From a bacterium (GTDB lineage Bacteria; Vulcanimicrobiota; Vulcanimicrobiia; Vulcanimicrobiales; Vulcanimicrobiaceae): DNA of 39,887 nt. Below are positions 11,295-19,549 of the stretch, piece by piece; positions within the stretch are counted from its first letter, which is position 1; each line of letters opens with the position of its first letter. Below the pieces are notes generated by a model, which saw nothing but the letters and a program-made list of their open reading frames with translations, made no database searches and was not told the DNA's origin. Both the position numbers and the translations under genes were made by a program. Where the stretch lies: NCBI GenBank assembly GCA_021845615.1, contig JAJZVP010000006.1, forward strand, positions 1 through 39,887. Reading direction: 5' to 3'.

Positions 11295-12437
11295 TTATGT
11301 TAGCACCTCGGCCATACGACCGGCGTCGCGAGCGAACTCGATCTCCATGGCGATGCGTTCGCCGACGGAGAGATCGCGTCCCCAACGATAGGACGAATAC
11401 GGAGTGAAACGAGTCCCCGGCGAACCCGGAATGCGCAACGAGACGTCGTAGCACACGAACTCTTTCGGCGGGCCGGCGACGATGGCACACTGCAGCGCAA
11501 AGGGGCCGATCGTCCCCGGAGGGAGTGCTTCGCGCGCCGCAGCGACGAAGCGCTCGCCCATGCCGAACGCCGATTCGAGCGTCGATTCCGTGAGCGTCGC
11601 GGCGATGTGTCCCGCCTCTTCCAGGCGCATCGGGACGTCGCGCAGCTGCTCGTAGACCGAGGGCGGCACGTTACGAAATCCTTCGAGGTTGGTCTGCCGC
11701 CGAGTATCGGTGCCGAGCAATTCCAATTCTCCGAGGATCGGCGAATAAAAGAAATTCAGGTTGACGGAGGGACCGAGCGCGAATTCCTCGATCACCGCCC
11801 CGGCGAGCCCGCTCTCGTCGAGAATGCCGTCGGCGATGAGTCGCGCGCTGACCTCGCGATACTGTTGCGGGCTCGCGCAGAGAAAGAAGGCACGCTCGAA
11901 ACGCACGCGCGCGTGCGGAGCCTTCACCATGACGAGCCGATCGATCTCCTCCGGCGACGTAAACTGACGGGGATGCCGAATGCCCGCCTTGGCCAACAGT
12001 TCGTACTGGTTTCCGGCCTCGTCGCGCTCCTCGGCTCGAAGGAGGTAACGGTTTCCGAAAAACGGCACCAGCATGCGCTTCTCGATCTCGTCGTAGCTAT
12101 AACGCTGGTGCAGGTAGACTTCGAACGAGCGATTCGCGCAAAAAATGACGTTCCGCGCAAGGAGCTCGCGCTGCACGCGCTCGTCGAGCAGATCGGCAAA
12201 GGCATCGAGCTCGATCGTCTCGTCGACGCACCCGCGCGGAATCGGCGACTCGCGGCGCCGAAAGTGCTCGGTGTAGGTTCGTTCGCGCCCCTTCGCCGTG
12301 ACGACCAAATTCCGAAAGCCGCGCATTCGCGCCCCCGCTGCGACCTCGAGCGCCGAATGGCTTCCGATCGAGCATATCGTCAACGCGTCGAGATCGTAGC
12401 CTCGTAACGTCTCTTCGACCGAGGTAAAGCTCGCCAT
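11295..12437 (-). CDS. PurP-family ATP-grasp protein, divergent paralog
   Basis: A 380-aa member of the PurP family (FAICAR synthetase), recognisable from the N-terminal LRGYDLDAL...SIGSHSALEVAAGA block (residues ~11-36), the pocket segment MLVPFFGNR at ~122-130, and a C-terminal ATP-grasp half ending in S-L-R-I-P-G-S-P-G. Where the neighbouring PurP has a Gly-rich ATP loop, this one reads KAPHARVRFERAFF (~172-185), with no GGKGY. I recall a second archaeal PurP-like type with an ERAFF-style motif here, but cannot check it. It may be a non-catalytic partner, a regulator, or an enzyme with altered substrate. It sits 3 nt downstream of the canonical purP and 4 nt upstream of guaA. Confident of the family, unsure of the reaction. 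Confidence 0.85.
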   Translation of the reverse strand: MASFTSVEETLRGYDLDALTICSIGSHSALEVAAGARMRGFRNLVVTAKGRERTYTEHFRRRESPIPRGCVDETIELDAFADLLDERVQRELLARNVIFCANRSFEVYLHQRYSYDEIEKRMLVPFFGNRYLLRAEERDEAGNQYELLAKAGIRHPRQFTSPEEIDRLVMVKAPHARVRFERAFFLCASPQQYREVSARLIADGILDESGLAGAVIEEFALGPSVNLNFFYSPILGELELLGTDTRRQTNLEGFRNVPPSVYEQLRDVPMRLEEAGHIAATLTESTLESAFGMGERFVAAAREALPPGTIGPFALQCAIVAGPPKEFVCYDVSLRIPGSPGTRFTPYSSYRWGRDLSVGERIAMEIEFARDAGRMAEVLT

Positions 12438-12440
12438 CGG

Positions 12441-13463
12441 CTAGAGCACGCTCGAGTCGTCGAGGACCGCGCGCAGGTTCGAAGAGAGCAACGCGTTTTT
12501 AATTTCCCGTGCGATGCGCCGCCCGGTCGACATCGGCTCGGAGTAGTGGAGGTACGAGTATGGGGAGCCGTCGATAAACAGGTTGCTCCCCGCAACGATA
12601 CGCGCCGAAATTTCCATGATGTAAAAATGCATATCGGGCGTGATGATGGTTTCGATACAGAACGCCCCAAACAGTCCCTTCGGCCCGCAAATTTCCTTGC
12701 TGACGCGAACGACGTTGTCGCCCATTTCGAGCGCCTCGGCGAGCATCGATTCGCGTAGGCTAACCGGCGAATTCCCGACGACGACGTAGGATGGATCGAC
12801 GTCCATTCCCTCTTGTGCCGCTGCAGGGATGCGCCCCAGCGAGTCCACGTTCGTTTCGTAGCGACGGTCCATCGACATGATTTCGAGCTCGCCGGAGAGC
12901 GGCGAGTAAAAATAATGGATGTAGAGCGGCACGCCGATGATATATTCTTGAATCGTATATTGAGCTTTGAGCGAACCCGCCCGCTCCTCGAAATCGGCGG
13001 CGTCACGGATGAACATATATCCCTTGCCGCCGGCGGCTCCATACAATTTGACGATGACCGGCCGGTCGATCTCCGCGCCGCTCTTGAATTGTCTCGGCAG
13101 GCGTAACCCCGCTCGCGTCAGCCAATCGCGCTGCAACTCGCGGCTCGCCTCCCAATCGAGTACCGCTTTATTCCCGAAGTAGGGAATCGTCATCTTCTTA
13201 TGCTCTTCGGGCGAGAGATAGGCGACGAAGGATCCGTGCGGAACGACGATCGCCTTTCGCGCTTGCAGCTCCTCGAAGAGGGTCGGGAAGGCCGAGTACG
13301 ACGGGAGCACGATGACCTCGTCGACAAAGCGAAACGATCGATAGAGTCGTTCGGTTTGAGGATTGGTGATCGCCAACGTGCGAAAACCTTCGTCGCGCGC
13401 CCCTTTCAGAATCTGAAGAGCGGAGTGCGAGCCCAAGGTCGCGATGGTATAGTGCCGATTCAT
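12441..13463 (-). CDS. purP: FAICAR synthetase (formate- and ATP-dependent AICAR formylation)
   Basis: Canonical PurP: uses formate and ATP to turn AICAR into FAICAR, the step that PurH performs with 10-formyl-tetrahydrofolate in most bacteria. The 340-aa protein begins with IATLGSHSALQILKGA (~7-22), has the pocket segment MTIPYFGNKA (~91-100), then the ATP-grasp half with VIVKLYGAAGGKGYMF (~136-151). Metal-binding and base-binding residues cluster in the C-terminal FCIETIITPD and MEISARIVAGSN. PurP is characteristically archaeal, so its presence inside a bacterial pur operon is notable. The start ATG overlaps the stop of the 134-aa gene as ATGA. No purH or purO is in the window, so the final cyclohydrolase must be elsewhere. 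Confidence 0.92.
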   Translation of the reverse strand: MNRHYTIATLGSHSALQILKGARDEGFRTLAITNPQTERLYRSFRFVDEVIVLPSYSAFPTLFEELQARKAIVVPHGSFVAYLSPEEHKKMTIPYFGNKAVLDWEASRELQRDWLTRAGLRLPRQFKSGAEIDRPVIVKLYGAAGGKGYMFIRDAADFEERAGSLKAQYTIQEYIIGVPLYIHYFYSPLSGELEIMSMDRRYETNVDSLGRIPAAAQEGMDVDPSYVVVGNSPVSLRESMLAEALEMGDNVVRVSKEICGPKGLFGAFCIETIITPDMHFYIMEISARIVAGSNLFIDGSPYSYLHYSEPMSTGRRIAREIKNALLSSNLRAVLDDSSVL

Positions 13464-13864
13464 CGGATCGCCCTTTCGATGGCGGGATTACAAAGCAGTC
13501 GAACGCATGCGGCATCGAGCTCGTCGCCGCCGAGCGGTTCGTCGGCGCCGCCGAAGAGCCGCCAACTGACGAGGCGACGCATCGGCGCCGACCGCGGCGC
13601 GTCGAGCATCTCGATCCACACTTCACCCGCGCGCGGCTGCATGCTCGCGAGCCGCTCGAGGCGATGTTTGTTGGGGTTGAAAAGCGTTTCGTCGCGCTCG
13701 ATGCGCTCGCGCAACGTTTCGTTACCTTCGTCGCCGTTAAAGACGAGCACGTCGGCGCGTCGAACGTGCGCGACGGCGATACCAAGGCGTTGGAGCGCCC
13801 GCATCGCGGTGTAAGCTTCGTTATCGGGGATTTTCAACGCAACCGCAAATGCCCGTTCGCCCAT
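13460..13864 (-). CDS. Small protein between purQ and purP; candidate PurS-like subunit
   Basis: A 134-aa protein I do not recognise by sequence. It starts at ATG 13864, sharing its A with the purQ stop (TAATG), and its TGA overlaps the purP start (ATGA), so it is tightly coupled to both. The first ~50 residues (FAVALKIPDNEA, then ALQRLGIAVAHVRRADVLVF) alternate short beta-like and helical segments, as in PurS, the ~80-aa subunit required by small-type PurL/PurQ. A charged stretch follows with DETLFNPNKHRLERL, and the C-terminus (~75-134) has no match I know. PurS is otherwise missing from the run although PurL is of the small type. A PurS replacement is therefore the leading hypothesis, from position and rough pattern only. 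Confidence 0.6.
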   Translation of the reverse strand: MGERAFAVALKIPDNEAYTAMRALQRLGIAVAHVRRADVLVFNGDEGNETLRERIERDETLFNPNKHRLERLASMQPRAGEVWIEMLDAPRSAPMRRLVSWRLFGGADEPLGGDELDAACVRLLCNPAIERAIR

Positions 13865-14631
13865 TACCAACGCTCCAATGCAGTGACGAAGCTTCGGAAC
13901 AGGACGCTCCCTCCCGAAGGAGCGAGAACATCCGCACCTTCGCGCCGATCGAGGTGGTTGAAGTTCCATGCGTCGCGTTCGGGGTGCGGCATGATCGCCA
14001 AGACGTTGCCTTCGCGATTCGTCAGCGCCGCCGCACCGAGCGCCGATCCTTGCGGCGCAAGGTGCGCGTCGGTCGCTCCACGAGCGTCGGCGTAGCGAAA
14101 GACGACGTGCCCGCCGCGCTCGATTTCCTCGAGGTGCGCGGCCGAGGCGGCGAGCCGTCCCTGCCCGTGCGCCGCCCATGCCGGGATGAGTGCGTCCTCC
14201 GGCAGCGCGGCGGCGATCGCGCAGCGTTCTGCCGCAACGGTCCGTCGCAAGAGGACGCGTTCGCAAATGAAATGTCCCTGCGCGTTGTGCGTGAAGGCTG
14301 CCGTCGGTCGGCGAATCTCTCCGCTTCCCGGTACGAGCCCCGCCTCCAACAGAATTTGCGCGCCGTTGCAGATTCCCATGACGAGTTTTCCGGCCTGCGC
14401 CGCTTCGATCACAACGTCGAGCATCGCGTCGTGTGCGGCAATAGCTCCGGCGCGAATGCGGTCTTCGTATGCGAAGCCGCCCGGCAGAACGAATGCATCG
14501 TAATACGCGAGGCTCGCCGATTCGCTCCAATGCACGATCCGCGCGTCGGCTCCGCAATCGAGCAGCAGATCGCGGGTCTCTTCTTCGGAATTGGTTCCCG
14601 GGAAAACGAGAACCGCTACGCGTGCAGTCAC
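13864..14631 (-). CDS. purQ: Phosphoribosylformylglycinamidine synthase, glutaminase subunit
   Basis: Class I glutamine amidotransferase supplying ammonia to PurL in the conversion of FGAR to FGAM. The 255-aa product has the N-terminal VLVFPGTNSEEETRD, the nucleophile Cys in MGICNGAQIL, and the catalytic His/Glu in IMPHPERDAW. I chose the GTG at 14631 because it overlaps the purL stop as GTGA and has AGGAGCT upstream; the open frame extends 19 codons further but those residues (rich in Pro and Ala) overlap purL and are not PurQ-like. It is followed with a one-base overlap by the 134-aa candidate PurS gene, reproducing the usual association of PurQ, PurL and a small subunit. Confidence 0.95.
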   Translation of the reverse strand: MTARVAVLVFPGTNSEEETRDLLLDCGADARIVHWSESASLAYYDAFVLPGGFAYEDRIRAGAIAAHDAMLDVVIEAAQAGKLVMGICNGAQILLEAGLVPGSGEIRRPTAAFTHNAQGHFICERVLLRRTVAAERCAIAAALPEDALIPAWAAHGQGRLAASAAHLEEIERGGHVVFRYADARGATDAHLAPQGSALGAAALTNREGNVLAIMPHPERDAWNFNHLDRREGADVLAPSGGSVLFRSFVTALERW

Positions 14632-16934
14632 GGAAAGAGCTCCTGGAGCGGGCGCGACCAACTGCGGTGGAGATCGTCGATCTCCCACGCGTCATCGTCG
14701 AAGGCGAGGATCGGTTGCGGGATCGTCGTGCCGATCTCACGCACGCTCTCCAAGGCACCGGCGAGTTCTTCGAAGCGATCGACGTCGCGCTCTGCGACTT
14801 CGACGACGATCCCGCCCCATTCGCCGAAGAGCGATTCGTAGCGTCCAACGTTCGACCACCCTGCGAGGCCGTCGAGTTCGATGCCGATCGCCGCTCGCTG
14901 CGCCGGATAGCAGGCAAAACTCATCTCGGCGAGCGTCACGAGCAAGCCCCCGTCGGAGATATCGTGCGCGCTGCGAAGGAGCCCCGCACGCGCCGCAGCG
15001 AGGAGGAAGCGGTGCTCGGCGAGCACGCGCTCGAAATCGATAGCGGGCACTCCTTCGTCGCGCAGCGACAGGAGCGCGGCGAGCACGCTCCCACCGAGCG
15101 CGCGCTGCGTTTCACCGACGAGATAGAGCCGCGAGCCGACCTCTTTCAGCGCGAGCGTCACGCACTGCGAAACGTCGGTGAGACGCCCGAGGCAGGCAAC
15201 GATCGGCGAGGCCGGGATCGCATGGCCGTCGCTCGCCGCATTATAGAGACTCACGTTCCCCGATACGTAGGCGAGCCCCAAGGCGCGCGCCGATCGCGCG
15301 AGGCCGTCGATTCCCGCGACGAGTTCGCCGAATTGTCTAGCGTCGCGCGGGCTTCCGTAATTGAGACAATCGGTAAGGCCGATCGGTTCGGCTCCGACGG
15401 CGACGACGTTGCGCACCGCTTCGTAGACCGCGTGTTCGGCGGCTCGCTCCGGGTCGATCCGTCCGATGCGCGGATTGCCGTCGACGCTCAATGCAAACGC
15501 GAGCTGCGAACCGCGTATCGGTGCGAGGACGCCGGCGTCGGCCTCGCCGCGCGGGATCACGGTGCGCCCGCGAACGACGGCGTCGTAATGACGGAAGAGC
15601 GGAGCCCGCGAGCAGACGTCGCGGTGGGCGAGGGTCGCGTGGAGCACATCGTCGAGCGTCCGTTCGCAGGCGAGGTCGTGCTCCCGCCGTTCCCTCGGAG
15701 GAGCGGGCGGCTGTGCCGGAAGCGTATCGCGCACCGTCCCGGTCAGAAAATCGATCGGAACGTCCATCACGAGTTCGCCGCGATGGCGCAACTGATAGCG
15801 TTGCGCGGCGGTCGCACGGCCGATACGAACGGCACGCGCATTCTGGGCGACCTGCGGCAACGAGAACTCTTCGTTATAGATGCGCTCGACCTCGTCGACG
15901 ATCTCCTCGGGTAGCGCCCAAAGCAGCCGTTCCTGCGTCTCGCCGACGGCGATAACTTCGGGGAGCAGGTGGTCGACCGCGACGTTCACGGTGTCGAGAT
16001 CGAGCTCCGCACCGAAACCGCCCGCGCTGCATAATTCCGCCGAACATCCCATAATGCCGCCGGCACCGAGATCTTTAAAGCCGACCTCGATCCCGCGCGC
16101 TCGGAGCATCGAGAAGACGCGATAGCTGGCGCGCATGATGACGTTTTTCAGGAATGGGTCGGGAACCTGAACCGCGCCTTTATTGCTCTCCGTCTCTCGC
16201 GCGTCGAGCGCGACCGAGGAGAACGAAGCCCCCCCGAAACCGCTCGCATCGGTCGCCTTCCCGACGAGCAGCAACACGAAATCCGCTCCATGTTTCGGCA
16301 CGCGCGAATGGATGATCTGCGACTCTTTTACGAGTCCGAGCGCGACCACGTTGACGAGGACGTTATCGTCGAACTCCGGATCGAAATAACAATCGCCCGC
16401 AAGGTTGGGAACCCCGATGGCGTTCCCGTACGCAGCGATGCCGTCGACGACGCCGCGCGCCACCGCGCGTTGATGCGGGCGGGCGGGATCGACGTTGCCG
16501 AAGCGCAGCGGGTCGGCGACGGCGACGACCTCGGCGCCCATGCAGAGGACGTCGCGCACGATGCCGCCGATACCGGTCGCAGCCCCCTCGAACGGCACGA
16601 CCTGCGATGGGTGATTGTGCGACTCGTGAGCGATGACGATTCCATACCGTTCGCCCTCGTGTTCGCCGAGATGCAAGATGCCCGCATCCTCCGCCGGGCC
16701 GAGCACGACGTCGGCGCCCTTCGTCGGAAGGTGGGATAAGAGCGCGCGACTCGATTTATACGAGCAATGCTCGCTCCACTGAGCGTCGAACGCGTAAAGT
16801 TCGACCAAACTCGGCGCTCGCCCGAGGCGATCCGCGATGCCGCGCAGTTCGTCGACGCGCAAGGCGAGCCCCAATGCATCGGCACGCGCGCGCAGAGTTT
16901 CGTCGTCGAGTTCGGCGACGGCTAAATCACGCAA
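14628..16934 (-). CDS. purL: Phosphoribosylformylglycinamidine synthase, large (ATP-binding) subunit, small-type PurL
   Basis: ATPase/synthase subunit for FGAR to FGAM, fourth step of the pathway. At 768 aa it is the small-type PurL (the large fused form is about 1,300 aa), so it should need PurQ and a PurS-like subunit. Landmarks are DAQWSEHCSYKSSR near residue 50, AHESHNHPSQVVPFEGAATG near 105, the GDCYFDPEFDDN segment, DLGAGGIMG, and a second AIR-synthetase-like half with SAHDISDGGLLVTLAEM. The start is TTG at 16934, with GGGAG about 8 nt upstream inside the end of purC; the overlap with purC is 8 nt. No ATG gives a complete N-terminus. The catalytic His and nucleotide-binding regions look intact. 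Confidence 0.95.
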   Translation of the reverse strand: MRDLAVAELDDETLRARADALGLALRVDELRGIADRLGRAPSLVELYAFDAQWSEHCSYKSSRALLSHLPTKGADVVLGPAEDAGILHLGEHEGERYGIVIAHESHNHPSQVVPFEGAATGIGGIVRDVLCMGAEVVAVADPLRFGNVDPARPHQRAVARGVVDGIAAYGNAIGVPNLAGDCYFDPEFDDNVLVNVVALGLVKESQIIHSRVPKHGADFVLLLVGKATDASGFGGASFSSVALDARETESNKGAVQVPDPFLKNVIMRASYRVFSMLRARGIEVGFKDLGAGGIMGCSAELCSAGGFGAELDLDTVNVAVDHLLPEVIAVGETQERLLWALPEEIVDEVERIYNEEFSLPQVAQNARAVRIGRATAAQRYQLRHRGELVMDVPIDFLTGTVRDTLPAQPPAPPRERREHDLACERTLDDVLHATLAHRDVCSRAPLFRHYDAVVRGRTVIPRGEADAGVLAPIRGSQLAFALSVDGNPRIGRIDPERAAEHAVYEAVRNVVAVGAEPIGLTDCLNYGSPRDARQFGELVAGIDGLARSARALGLAYVSGNVSLYNAASDGHAIPASPIVACLGRLTDVSQCVTLALKEVGSRLYLVGETQRALGGSVLAALLSLRDEGVPAIDFERVLAEHRFLLAAARAGLLRSAHDISDGGLLVTLAEMSFACYPAQRAAIGIELDGLAGWSNVGRYESLFGEWGGIVVEVAERDVDRFEELAGALESVREIGTTIPQPILAFDDDAWEIDDLHRSWSRPLQELFP

Positions 16935-18117
16935 TGACGGCTCCCGGCGGCAATTGTTGTTGGAGGAGCGCGTCGACGCGCAGCATTTCGGAGCGCGCGT
17001 TCGACTGAGCGAGCATCACGCGTCCGAACATCGCCGAGTCGTCGATCGCCAGTAATTTCGCACAGGCGAGCGCGATGCGGTGCGGTTCGTCGTTTCCGTC
17101 GATGACCGGCGAGCTCGCGCTGCCGTCGAGGGTGGCGCGCAGCGTGTGGTCGCCGATCGCCACGAAGATCGGCCGGGCGAAGCCCGCCTCGATCTGCGAC
17201 ACGATCTGCAAGACGTAGCCCGGCGTCACCGTGACGCTGGCGAGATGGCGCGCCGTCGGAATACCGAAGGAATGGAGCGCGGTCGCGACTTCGTTCGCTC
17301 GGTCGACCATCTGCGCATCGTCGACGAAGATCGCCGCGACTCCAGGGCGCATCGCCGGAAAATTGCCGACGAAATCGGCGACCTGTTCGTAGGCGGCCTT
17401 CACGCGGGCGAGCCCCGCCGCATCGACCGGATCGAGATTGCGGTAGATCTGCTTATCGAGCATCTGATCTTCGTGTCCGTGCCGCCAGATGCGCCACGAA
17501 TCGTTGTCGATAACGTCGGCGATCACGAGCTGCCCTTGGTTCTCACCGCCGATCAATCGGCCGAACTCCACCTTCATATCGACGAGCAAGACGTCGCGAT
17601 GGCGCCAGGCGTGGGCGAGAATTTCGAAGGTCAACCGAGCGATCTCGCTCATCGCTCCAATTTCGTTGGGCGAAGCGATCCCGCGTGCGGCGATCTCCTC
17701 GGGGGTAATGAGCGGATCGTGATTTGCATCGTCCTTGAGGAAAAATTCCGTCACCCGCGGCACCAGGATCGCCCCGCGCTGGAGCCCCGTATGACGGCGC
17801 ACGAACGAGCCCGCCGCGACGCCGCGCACGACCACTTCCAACGGAATCATCGAGCAGCGGCGCACCAACATTTCGTTGTCGTCGTCGTCCTCGCCACCGT
17901 TGAGAAAATGCGTCGGCAATCCGCAGAGATTGAGCAACCGGAAGACGCGCGAGGTGGTCTGAGCGGCGAGCCGCCCTTTGCCGGGGATTTCGTCGCGCCG
18001 CGCGCCGTCGCCGGCGGTAATCGCATCGCCCTGCGCGACGACGAGTTGGTCGGGAGAACTCGGGACTTCGTAGAGAACTTTGGTCTTGCCCCGTGCGATC
18101 TCGATCCCTTTATCCAC
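16927..18117 (-). CDS. purC: PAICS-like fusion: SAICAR synthetase plus degenerate PurE-type domain
   Basis: Residues 1-255 are SAICAR synthetase: ARGKTKVLYE (8-17), DAITAGDGAR (31-40), EVVVRGVAAGSF (94-105), FFLKDDANHDP (125-135) and ADVIDNDSWRIW (200-211). These resemble animal PAICS more than the short bacterial PurC. Residues ~258-396 align with the PurE half of PAICS, but the active site is lost: the GSxSD loop is FVDDAQ (264-269), the SAH(R/K) motif is SVTV (294-297), and the SSLRMPSG-type loop is deleted, while the ending LAIDDSAMFGRVML (356-369) remains PurE-like. So PurC should be active and the PurE part probably structural or regulatory. The GTG start at 18117 has GGAGGA upstream and overlaps purB by 8 nt. 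AIR carboxylation must come from another locus. Confidence 0.92.
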   Translation of the reverse strand: MDKGIEIARGKTKVLYEVPSSPDQLVVAQGDAITAGDGARRDEIPGKGRLAAQTTSRVFRLLNLCGLPTHFLNGGEDDDDNEMLVRRCSMIPLEVVVRGVAAGSFVRRHTGLQRGAILVPRVTEFFLKDDANHDPLITPEEIAARGIASPNEIGAMSEIARLTFEILAHAWRHRDVLLVDMKVEFGRLIGGENQGQLVIADVIDNDSWRIWRHGHEDQMLDKQIYRNLDPVDAAGLARVKAAYEQVADFVGNFPAMRPGVAAIFVDDAQMVDRANEVATALHSFGIPTARHLASVTVTPGYVLQIVSQIEAGFARPIFVAIGDHTLRATLDGSASSPVIDGNDEPHRIALACAKLLAIDDSAMFGRVMLAQSNARSEMLRVDALLQQQLPPGAVIA

Positions 18118-19549
18118 GTTCTTCCTCCGCCCGATGTTCGGCGACGATGCGTTGCTGCGGGAAATCCGGCAATGCGGCGATCTGCGCCGCAACCATGCGC
18201 GCGCGCCGCGCCGCGAGCCCGACATGTCCCGTGGGATCGAGCGAGCGACGGATCTCGGCGGGATCGATCAGCGCGGTCAACGCCGGATCGCCGGCGAGTA
18301 ACCCCGCGAGCGGATTATCCTCGCCTCGGGCGAGCGCGTCCCACGCCTCCATCGCGCGTCCGCGCAGCGTTTCGTGCAACTCCTGACGGTCGCCGCCGGC
18401 GCGCGCGGCTTCCATCATCACCCGCTCGGTACCCGCAAACGGACCGTAGGTACGGACGTTCTGTGCGATGCGCCGTTCGTCGATGCGCAGCCCGCGCACC
18501 ACGCGCAGCGCGAGCGAGAGCAACTCGTCGACGCAGAGCAGCGCTTCGGGGATCGTGGTGCGTCGATTCGCACTATCGTCGAGCGTGCGCTCGAGGTAAT
18601 TCGTCGCGGCGTTCTGCCACGCGACGTCGGCGTATGCCGGCAAGAGCCGCGCGAGCGAATCGATCCGTTCGCAAAGAATCGGATTGCGCTTGAACGGCAT
18701 CGCGCTGCTGCCGACCTGCGCGCTTCCGAAGGGTTCGGCGAGCTCGCCGAACGGCGGCGCGCTGAGAATGCGCATATCGGCAGCGAACTTCGAAAGCGAT
18801 GTGCCGATGCCGGCGAGAGCGGCGAGCAACAGGTAATCGAGTTTGCGCGTGTAGGTTTGCGTGCTCGCCGCTCGCGCTTCGAGCCCGAAATGCTCGAGCA
18901 CCTCGCGCTCGAGATCGATCGACGCGCCGGTACCGCCGAGCAATTGTTCGTAGGACGCGGAGGTCCCGACGGCGCCGCGCAATCCCTTCGTCGTCATCTG
19001 CGCGAAGACGTGGCGGAGGTTCGCGTCGTCGATAAGGAGATCTTGGGCGTAGATCGCAAAGCGGTAGCCCAGCGTCGTCGGCTCCGCCGGCTGCAAGTGC
19101 GTGAACGCCATGCAGAGGCGATCGGCCTGCGCCTCAATCCGTTCGGCGAACGCCGCGAGCAACTCGTGTAAGCGTTCCCCGATACTGGAGAGCGCGCGGC
19201 GGATGCGATAGGTTTCGACCGTATCCTCGATGTCCATCGAGGTCGCGCCGAGATGGAGCTTGCCGCCGCCGATACGCGCCTGCGACGCGTAGACGCGGAT
19301 CTCGGCCATGAGATCGTGGTGGATCGAGCGCTCGATCTCTAATGCCGCCTCGATATCGATCTCATCGGCATGCGCGCGCAGGTCGGCGAGCTCCGCCTCG
19401 CTGACGAATCCGTGCTTCGATTGGGCTTGGGCGAGCGCGATCCAAACCTCGCGCCAGAGCCGCCGCCGCGTTCGCTCCGAGAAGAGCGAGCGCACGTCCT
19501 TGCGACCGTACCTCCAAGAGAACGGCGAAGCATAACTGGAGTGATCCAT
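18110..19549 (-). CDS. purB: Adenylosuccinate lyase
   Basis: Cleaves fumarate from SAICAR and from adenylosuccinate, serving both the IMP pathway and AMP formation. The 479-aa protein shows the fumarase/aspartase-superfamily pattern: LHLGATSMDIEDT around residue 95, the THLQPAEPTTLGYR catalytic-His segment, and the signature GSAQVGSSAMPFKRNP. The ATG at 19549 gives a typical N-terminus beginning YASPFSWRYGRKDVR. The open frame runs far upstream but only as a shadow of holA. Its last codons hold the ribosome binding site of purC, consistent with coupling. It follows holA after an 83-nt gap, the largest gap in the 13-gene run, so an internal promoter here is possible. Confidence 0.96.
   Translation of the reverse strand: MDHSSYASPFSWRYGRKDVRSLFSERTRRRLWREVWIALAQAQSKHGFVSEAELADLRAHADEIDIEAALEIERSIHHDLMAEIRVYASQARIGGGKLHLGATSMDIEDTVETYRIRRALSSIGERLHELLAAFAERIEAQADRLCMAFTHLQPAEPTTLGYRFAIYAQDLLIDDANLRHVFAQMTTKGLRGAVGTSASYEQLLGGTGASIDLEREVLEHFGLEARAASTQTYTRKLDYLLLAALAGIGTSLSKFAADMRILSAPPFGELAEPFGSAQVGSSAMPFKRNPILCERIDSLARLLPAYADVAWQNAATNYLERTLDDSANRRTTIPEALLCVDELLSLALRVVRGLRIDERRIAQNVRTYGPFAGTERVMMEAARAGGDRQELHETLRGRAMEAWDALARGEDNPLAGLLAGDPALTALIDPAEIRRSLDPTGHVGLAARRARMVAAQIAALPDFPQQRIVAEHRAEEERG

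Follow-up and report, generated by a model that had tools for sequence, protein, structure and literature searches.

A PurC–PurE fusion with a decayed, apparently non-catalytic PurE domain in the Vulcanimicrobiota

Why would a cell keep an enzyme domain, fused to a partner, after the domain has lost its active site? The question is raised by a gene, here called purC-purE', in a stretch of 39,887 nucleotides from a member of the Vulcanimicrobiaceae (the window), whose source genome comprises 186 contigs and is 81% complete. The original prediction, a PurC–PurE fusion with a dead PurE domain, was upheld by a PF01259 match of 203 bits, a predicted PurE fold and the loss of the catalytic segments, the death of the domain being read from its sequence. 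The gene and its parts are as follows.

16927..18117, minus strand: purC-purE' gene, 396 amino acids, GTG start, stop included (reading frame, profile match and phmmer)
17356..18117, minus strand: PurC (SAICAR synthetase) domain, residues 1-254 (PF01259; columns invariant across 42 relatives)
16930..17355, minus strand: decayed PurE (AIR carboxylase) domain, residues 255-396 (fold match to class II PurE and PAICS; weak TIGR01162)
17308..17322, minus strand: lost GSxSD site, residues 266-270, DDAQM (human PAICS 273-277; alignment columns 273-277)
17227..17238, minus strand: lost SAHK site, residues 294-297, SVTV, with general base His303 replaced by Thr296 (alignment columns 301-304)
17100..17101, minus strand: point between I339 and D340 at which 25 columns, mobile loop included, are deleted (alignment columns 351-375)
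16957..17085, minus strand: conserved C-terminal helices, residues 345-387 (DSSP of the model; lowest pN/pS of the gene)

The N-terminal part of the protein retains the marks of PurC. Profile searches matched PF01259 to residues 7-227 (cut-off 20 bits), and TIGR00081 scored 142.7 bits, below its equivalog cut-off of 189.9. The segments GKTK, FFLKDDANHDP, VDMKVEFG, ADVIDNDSWRIW and LDKQIYRN are all present, and GKTK, KDDANHDP, ADVIDND and LDKQ are invariant or nearly so across the 42 relatives, as fits a SAICAR synthetase. By phmmer the protein aligned with silkworm PAICS (E 1e-57) and human PAICS (E 1e-53) over residues 7-340; together with the fold match below, this establishes the PurC-then-PurE order in one chain that had been likened to animal PAICS. 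The best reading of the protein is thus a predicted working SAICAR synthetase joined to what would formerly have been a class II AIR carboxylase.

The C-terminal domain was barely visible to profiles, with no PF00731 match in the gene and a TIGR01162 match to residues 273-339 of 18.6 bits, below the curated PurE cut-off of 149.6. Its fold was recovered by structure prediction, which was carried out on single chains. The whole-chain AlphaFold model, built with the 42 relatives, reached a pLDDT of 90.7, and its top Foldseek match was human PAICS (6yb8; TM 0.88/0.84); the domain modelled alone (pLDDT 89.6) matched the class II PurE of Treponema denticola (3rg8; TM 0.75), which we rank as the best solved match for the domain by itself, and PAICS (TM 0.78). 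Residues 255-396 are therefore predicted to adopt a PurE-family fold and not an unrelated one, and the end of the domain, earlier described as still recognisable, is indeed retained in the alignment.

The active site has fared differently, and the earlier account of lost GSxSD, SAH(R/K) and mobile-loop motifs proved correct at each place. With catalytic positions taken from the human PAICS active-site list (PMC9376930), human GSTSD corresponds to DDAQM in the window protein (G273, S274 and D277 being D266, D267 and M270), and S301-A302-H303-K304 corresponds to S294-V295-T296-V297, in which the serine alone is kept. The GRSN motif is also gone, and the 25 deleted columns hold the mobile loop GMDxLSSLxxPxGIAS. 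Class II PurE 3rg8 resembles the domain in fold, but GSxxD, SAHK and GRSN, which are kept in relatives of the window protein outside its family, are missing from the window domain together with the loop; likewise the AIR carboxylase of animal PAICS is active, whereas the window protein fails to present a competent site. His303 of human PAICS is the general base, and studies cited in PMC9376930 found PurE to be inactive, or almost so, once the catalytic histidine was changed. From these losses we infer that the domain is unable to make CAIR and is catalytically dead.

To place this protein among its relatives, we surveyed first 60 related genomes and later 149 from the phylum Eremiobacterota/Vulcanimicrobiota, which revealed a graded series. 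In family f3, the nearest intact relative within the same class, an intact PurC–PurE fusion of the same architecture keeps GSxxD, SAHK and GRSN; no PurK above cut-off was found in these genomes, and beyond the fusion the PurE-type hits were limited to a weaker and more distant AIRC match, which we take to be LarB. In family f2 the loop is present, the catalytic histidine is replaced by Gln or Leu, and class I purE lies beside purK (cut by the contig end in genome G040). In family f1, to which the window belongs, the loop is missing from the aligned sequences, with a few unrelated residues at its place in L034 and L036, and purE-purK is present. Finally, in the genus g19 of this family the gene stops after PurC and the domain is gone, so that PurC does not depend on the domain in all lineages. 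The order of events suggested by these sequences is loss of the histidine, then of the motifs and loop, then of the domain. Two bins carried double PurC-type genes, which may reflect binning: in G115 a complete decayed fusion (71% identity, one stop) is accompanied by a gene for PurC alone, on contigs C9 and C86, and G107 (contamination 7%) has two decayed fusions on C1 and C2.

The fragmented state of the source genome could in principle point to a sequencing, assembly or binning artefact, but the full-length decayed domain is shared by 80 f1 genomes from 36 genera besides g19. Among them is genome G017, taken as that of the isolate Vulcanimicrobium alpinum WC8-2, so that the decayed form appears to occur in a cultured organism too. 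These comparative data rule out a local sequencing or assembly error, and the chance of an artefact of any of these kinds is negligible.

If the fused domain is dead, AIR carboxylation has to be performed elsewhere, as had been argued, and a genome search located a candidate: in the window's own genome a class I purE adjoins purK on contig C18, a different contig from the purine cluster of purC-purE'. The standalone PurE sequences that we read carry the class I motifs GSxSD, SAHR and GGAA.LPG. No standalone PurE was found in 4 of 37 f1 genomes (G008, G010, G015 and G036); these may be assembly gaps, and real losses are also possible, while G089, a genus mate of G015, does have the gene. Outside the class, G066 (family f11) encodes on contigs C18 and C8 both a fusion whose PurE part matches well (115 bits) and a PurE on its own (213 bits); the same replacement may have begun there a second time. 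The V. alpinum isolate needs high CO2 for growth (PMC9758169), which might have pointed to reliance on a class II PurE; since its genome (G017, locus L028) has purE-purK and the dead class II domain, the AIR step does not obviously explain this need.

The presence of the class I pair also bears on whether the fused domain might still be catalytic, either performing its former reaction by means of substitute residues or having taken up another. All 28 f1 sequences compared have Ser294 and Leu326 (human Ser301 and Leu335), and 6 of them retain the histidine, as might be expected of a working site. Nevertheless, the domain lacks the mobile loop as well as the segments for phosphate binding and catalysis, the cited effects of histidine changes argue the other way, and a purE-purK pair is at hand; we therefore regard continued catalysis as highly improbable.

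The gene itself sits in a purine cluster, with the following neighbours.

18110..19540, minus strand: purB, upstream neighbour of purC-purE' (TIGR00928, 341 bits)
14628..16934, minus strand: purL, overlapping the end of purC-purE' (TIGR01736, 643 bits)
13864..14688, minus strand: purQ (TIGR01737, 200 bits)

After purQ, a frame at 13463-13864 on the minus strand matched TIGR00302 at 19.7 bits (cut-off 39) in two stretches and has the appearance of a divergent PurS whose middle part is an insertion. A PF02700 profile search gave no PurS match in the window's genome, and the idea that PurS is absent from it is undercut, at least partly, by this frame. Two further minus-strand frames, 12441-13463 and 11295-12437, scored 387 and 239 bits as formate-dependent AICAR ligases of the PurP type, in each case short of the equivalog cut-off; such ligases have been described in archaea (PMC3261824). 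The same genome has an AICARFT/PurH-type match at C186.

We then compared the selective constraint on the two domains in ten genomes of the window's genus, using a simple counting method. In this one genus pN/pS was 0.067 for the dead domain (95% CI 0.039-0.105) and 0.048 for PurC (0.033-0.067), with the lowest value of the gene at residues 341-390 (0.029; 0.005-0.067), and all ten genes were identical in length, with no indels, frameshifts or stops. Divergence of the domain relative to PurC was 2.68 across f1 genera versus 1.32 in f3, a difference that would suit relaxed constraint as well. Furthermore, P254, R257, A262, R290, F313 and N373 are invariant in the 28 f1 sequences and differ from the commonest f3 residue, which suggests new constraints. 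The dead domain is thus under strong purifying selection now, and the constraint differs from the ancestral one; such selection fits a non-catalytic role, which may be one of oligomerisation, channelling, docking or allostery. Relaxed constraint alone is an insufficient explanation because pN/pS is low.

The faster evolution of the domain in f1, its large deletion, its variable linker lengths and its complete loss in g19 would suit a fading remnant of little function that is heading to loss, kept mainly since its deletion would disturb PurC folding. Set against this are the low pN/pS and the unbroken frames within the genus, as well as the retention of the full-length domain in so many f1 genera, and a mere remnant seems quite unlikely.

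We consider it probable that the domain is a non-catalytic structural part, left after PurK and class I PurE replaced a CO2-using class II carboxylase. Under this reading, and judging from f3 and other families, the ancestor would have had an active PurC–PurE fusion carboxylating AIR with CO2. Class I purE beside purK, which reach the same product by means of ATP and bicarbonate, would then have been gained by the ancestor of the order, after which the fused domain could have lost its catalytic histidine (the state seen in f2) and later the phosphate-binding motifs and mobile loop (f1). The fold and C-terminal helices would have been kept under strong purifying selection, and the domain not discarded, most likely because the PurC subunits are still held together as they are by the PurE core of octameric PAICS. 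PurE domains form the octamer core of PAICS, and it is the fold and the C-terminal helices that are best preserved here; by this analogy a structural role for the dead domain is favoured. PAICS itself is an octamer (PMC9376930).

The main rival to a structural role is docking of a separate PurE: the domain would be a docking or channelling module to which the standalone class I PurE (or PurK) attaches, possibly in mixed assemblies, and from which CAIR passes to PurC. PurE domains self-associate, a PurE homologue persists here alongside a separate PurE, and the f1-specific invariant residues could form a new surface; yet g19 has purE and does without the domain, and purE-purK lies on another contig, outside the purine cluster, so that we hold docking to be unlikely. 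A broader proposal, that the dead domain has become a new family-wide assembly part with invariant residues of its own, organising PurC with the newly acquired PurE and PurK, is possible and, on balance, doubtful; if true, a pseudoenzyme domain would structure a central metabolic step.

Returning to the structural reading and the fusion behind it, we examined the origin of the architecture. The stretches quoted as PAICS-like in the original prediction (FFLKDDANHDP and the ADVIDND-containing segment) are present as described; a special closeness to animal PAICS was not borne out, since unfused PurC proteins of Chloroflexota also carry them and the stretches are therefore general to a PurC subfamily. 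In a PurC tree, the root of which is uncertain and several branches of which are long, the Eremiobacterota proteins clustered with unfused Chloroflexota PurC and with a bin that has separate adjacent genes, while animal PAICS fell in another group with Armatimonadota and Melainabacteria-type fusions. On this grouping the Eremiobacterota/Vulcanimicrobiota fusion probably arose separately from that of animals. Animal PAICS (human 6yb8 and 2h31, silkworm 4ja0) resembles the window protein in having PurC then PurE in one chain, but differs in that the PurC of the latter is nearer to unfused Chloroflexota PurC; the intact fusions of f3 and of Armatimonadota and Melainabacteria-type bins share the architecture. 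At seven loci (L109, L116, L118, L120, L122, L125 and L131; Chloroflexota and one other bin) purC is closely followed by a separate PurE-type frame, and such adjacent genes probably represent the state that preceded fusion.

In the literature that we searched, a limited set of open papers, we found no report of a PurC joined to a decayed PurE. The closest parallel there is PurE-PurE' of Methanobacteria, in which a divergent second PurE-like domain is needed for complementation and a structural role is one of two readings proposed (PMC3261824). As in the window protein, a purine enzyme carries a fused, divergent PurE-like domain; in contrast, the partner is PurE and not PurC, and those species have no purK (PMC3261824).

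These results describe a large group of mostly uncultured soil bacteria whose PurC carries a dead PurE domain that selection still keeps. For the f1 family, an annotation or metabolic model would err in treating PurC–PurE fusions as active AIR carboxylases. Among the relatives, one activity of a bifunctional metabolic enzyme can be followed through successive stages of its loss, from the intact fusion through a missing catalytic residue and a missing loop to the absence of the whole domain, and genomes with the decaying domain also contain purE-purK, the replacement that came in. With this series it becomes testable why cells retain an enzyme domain after its death.
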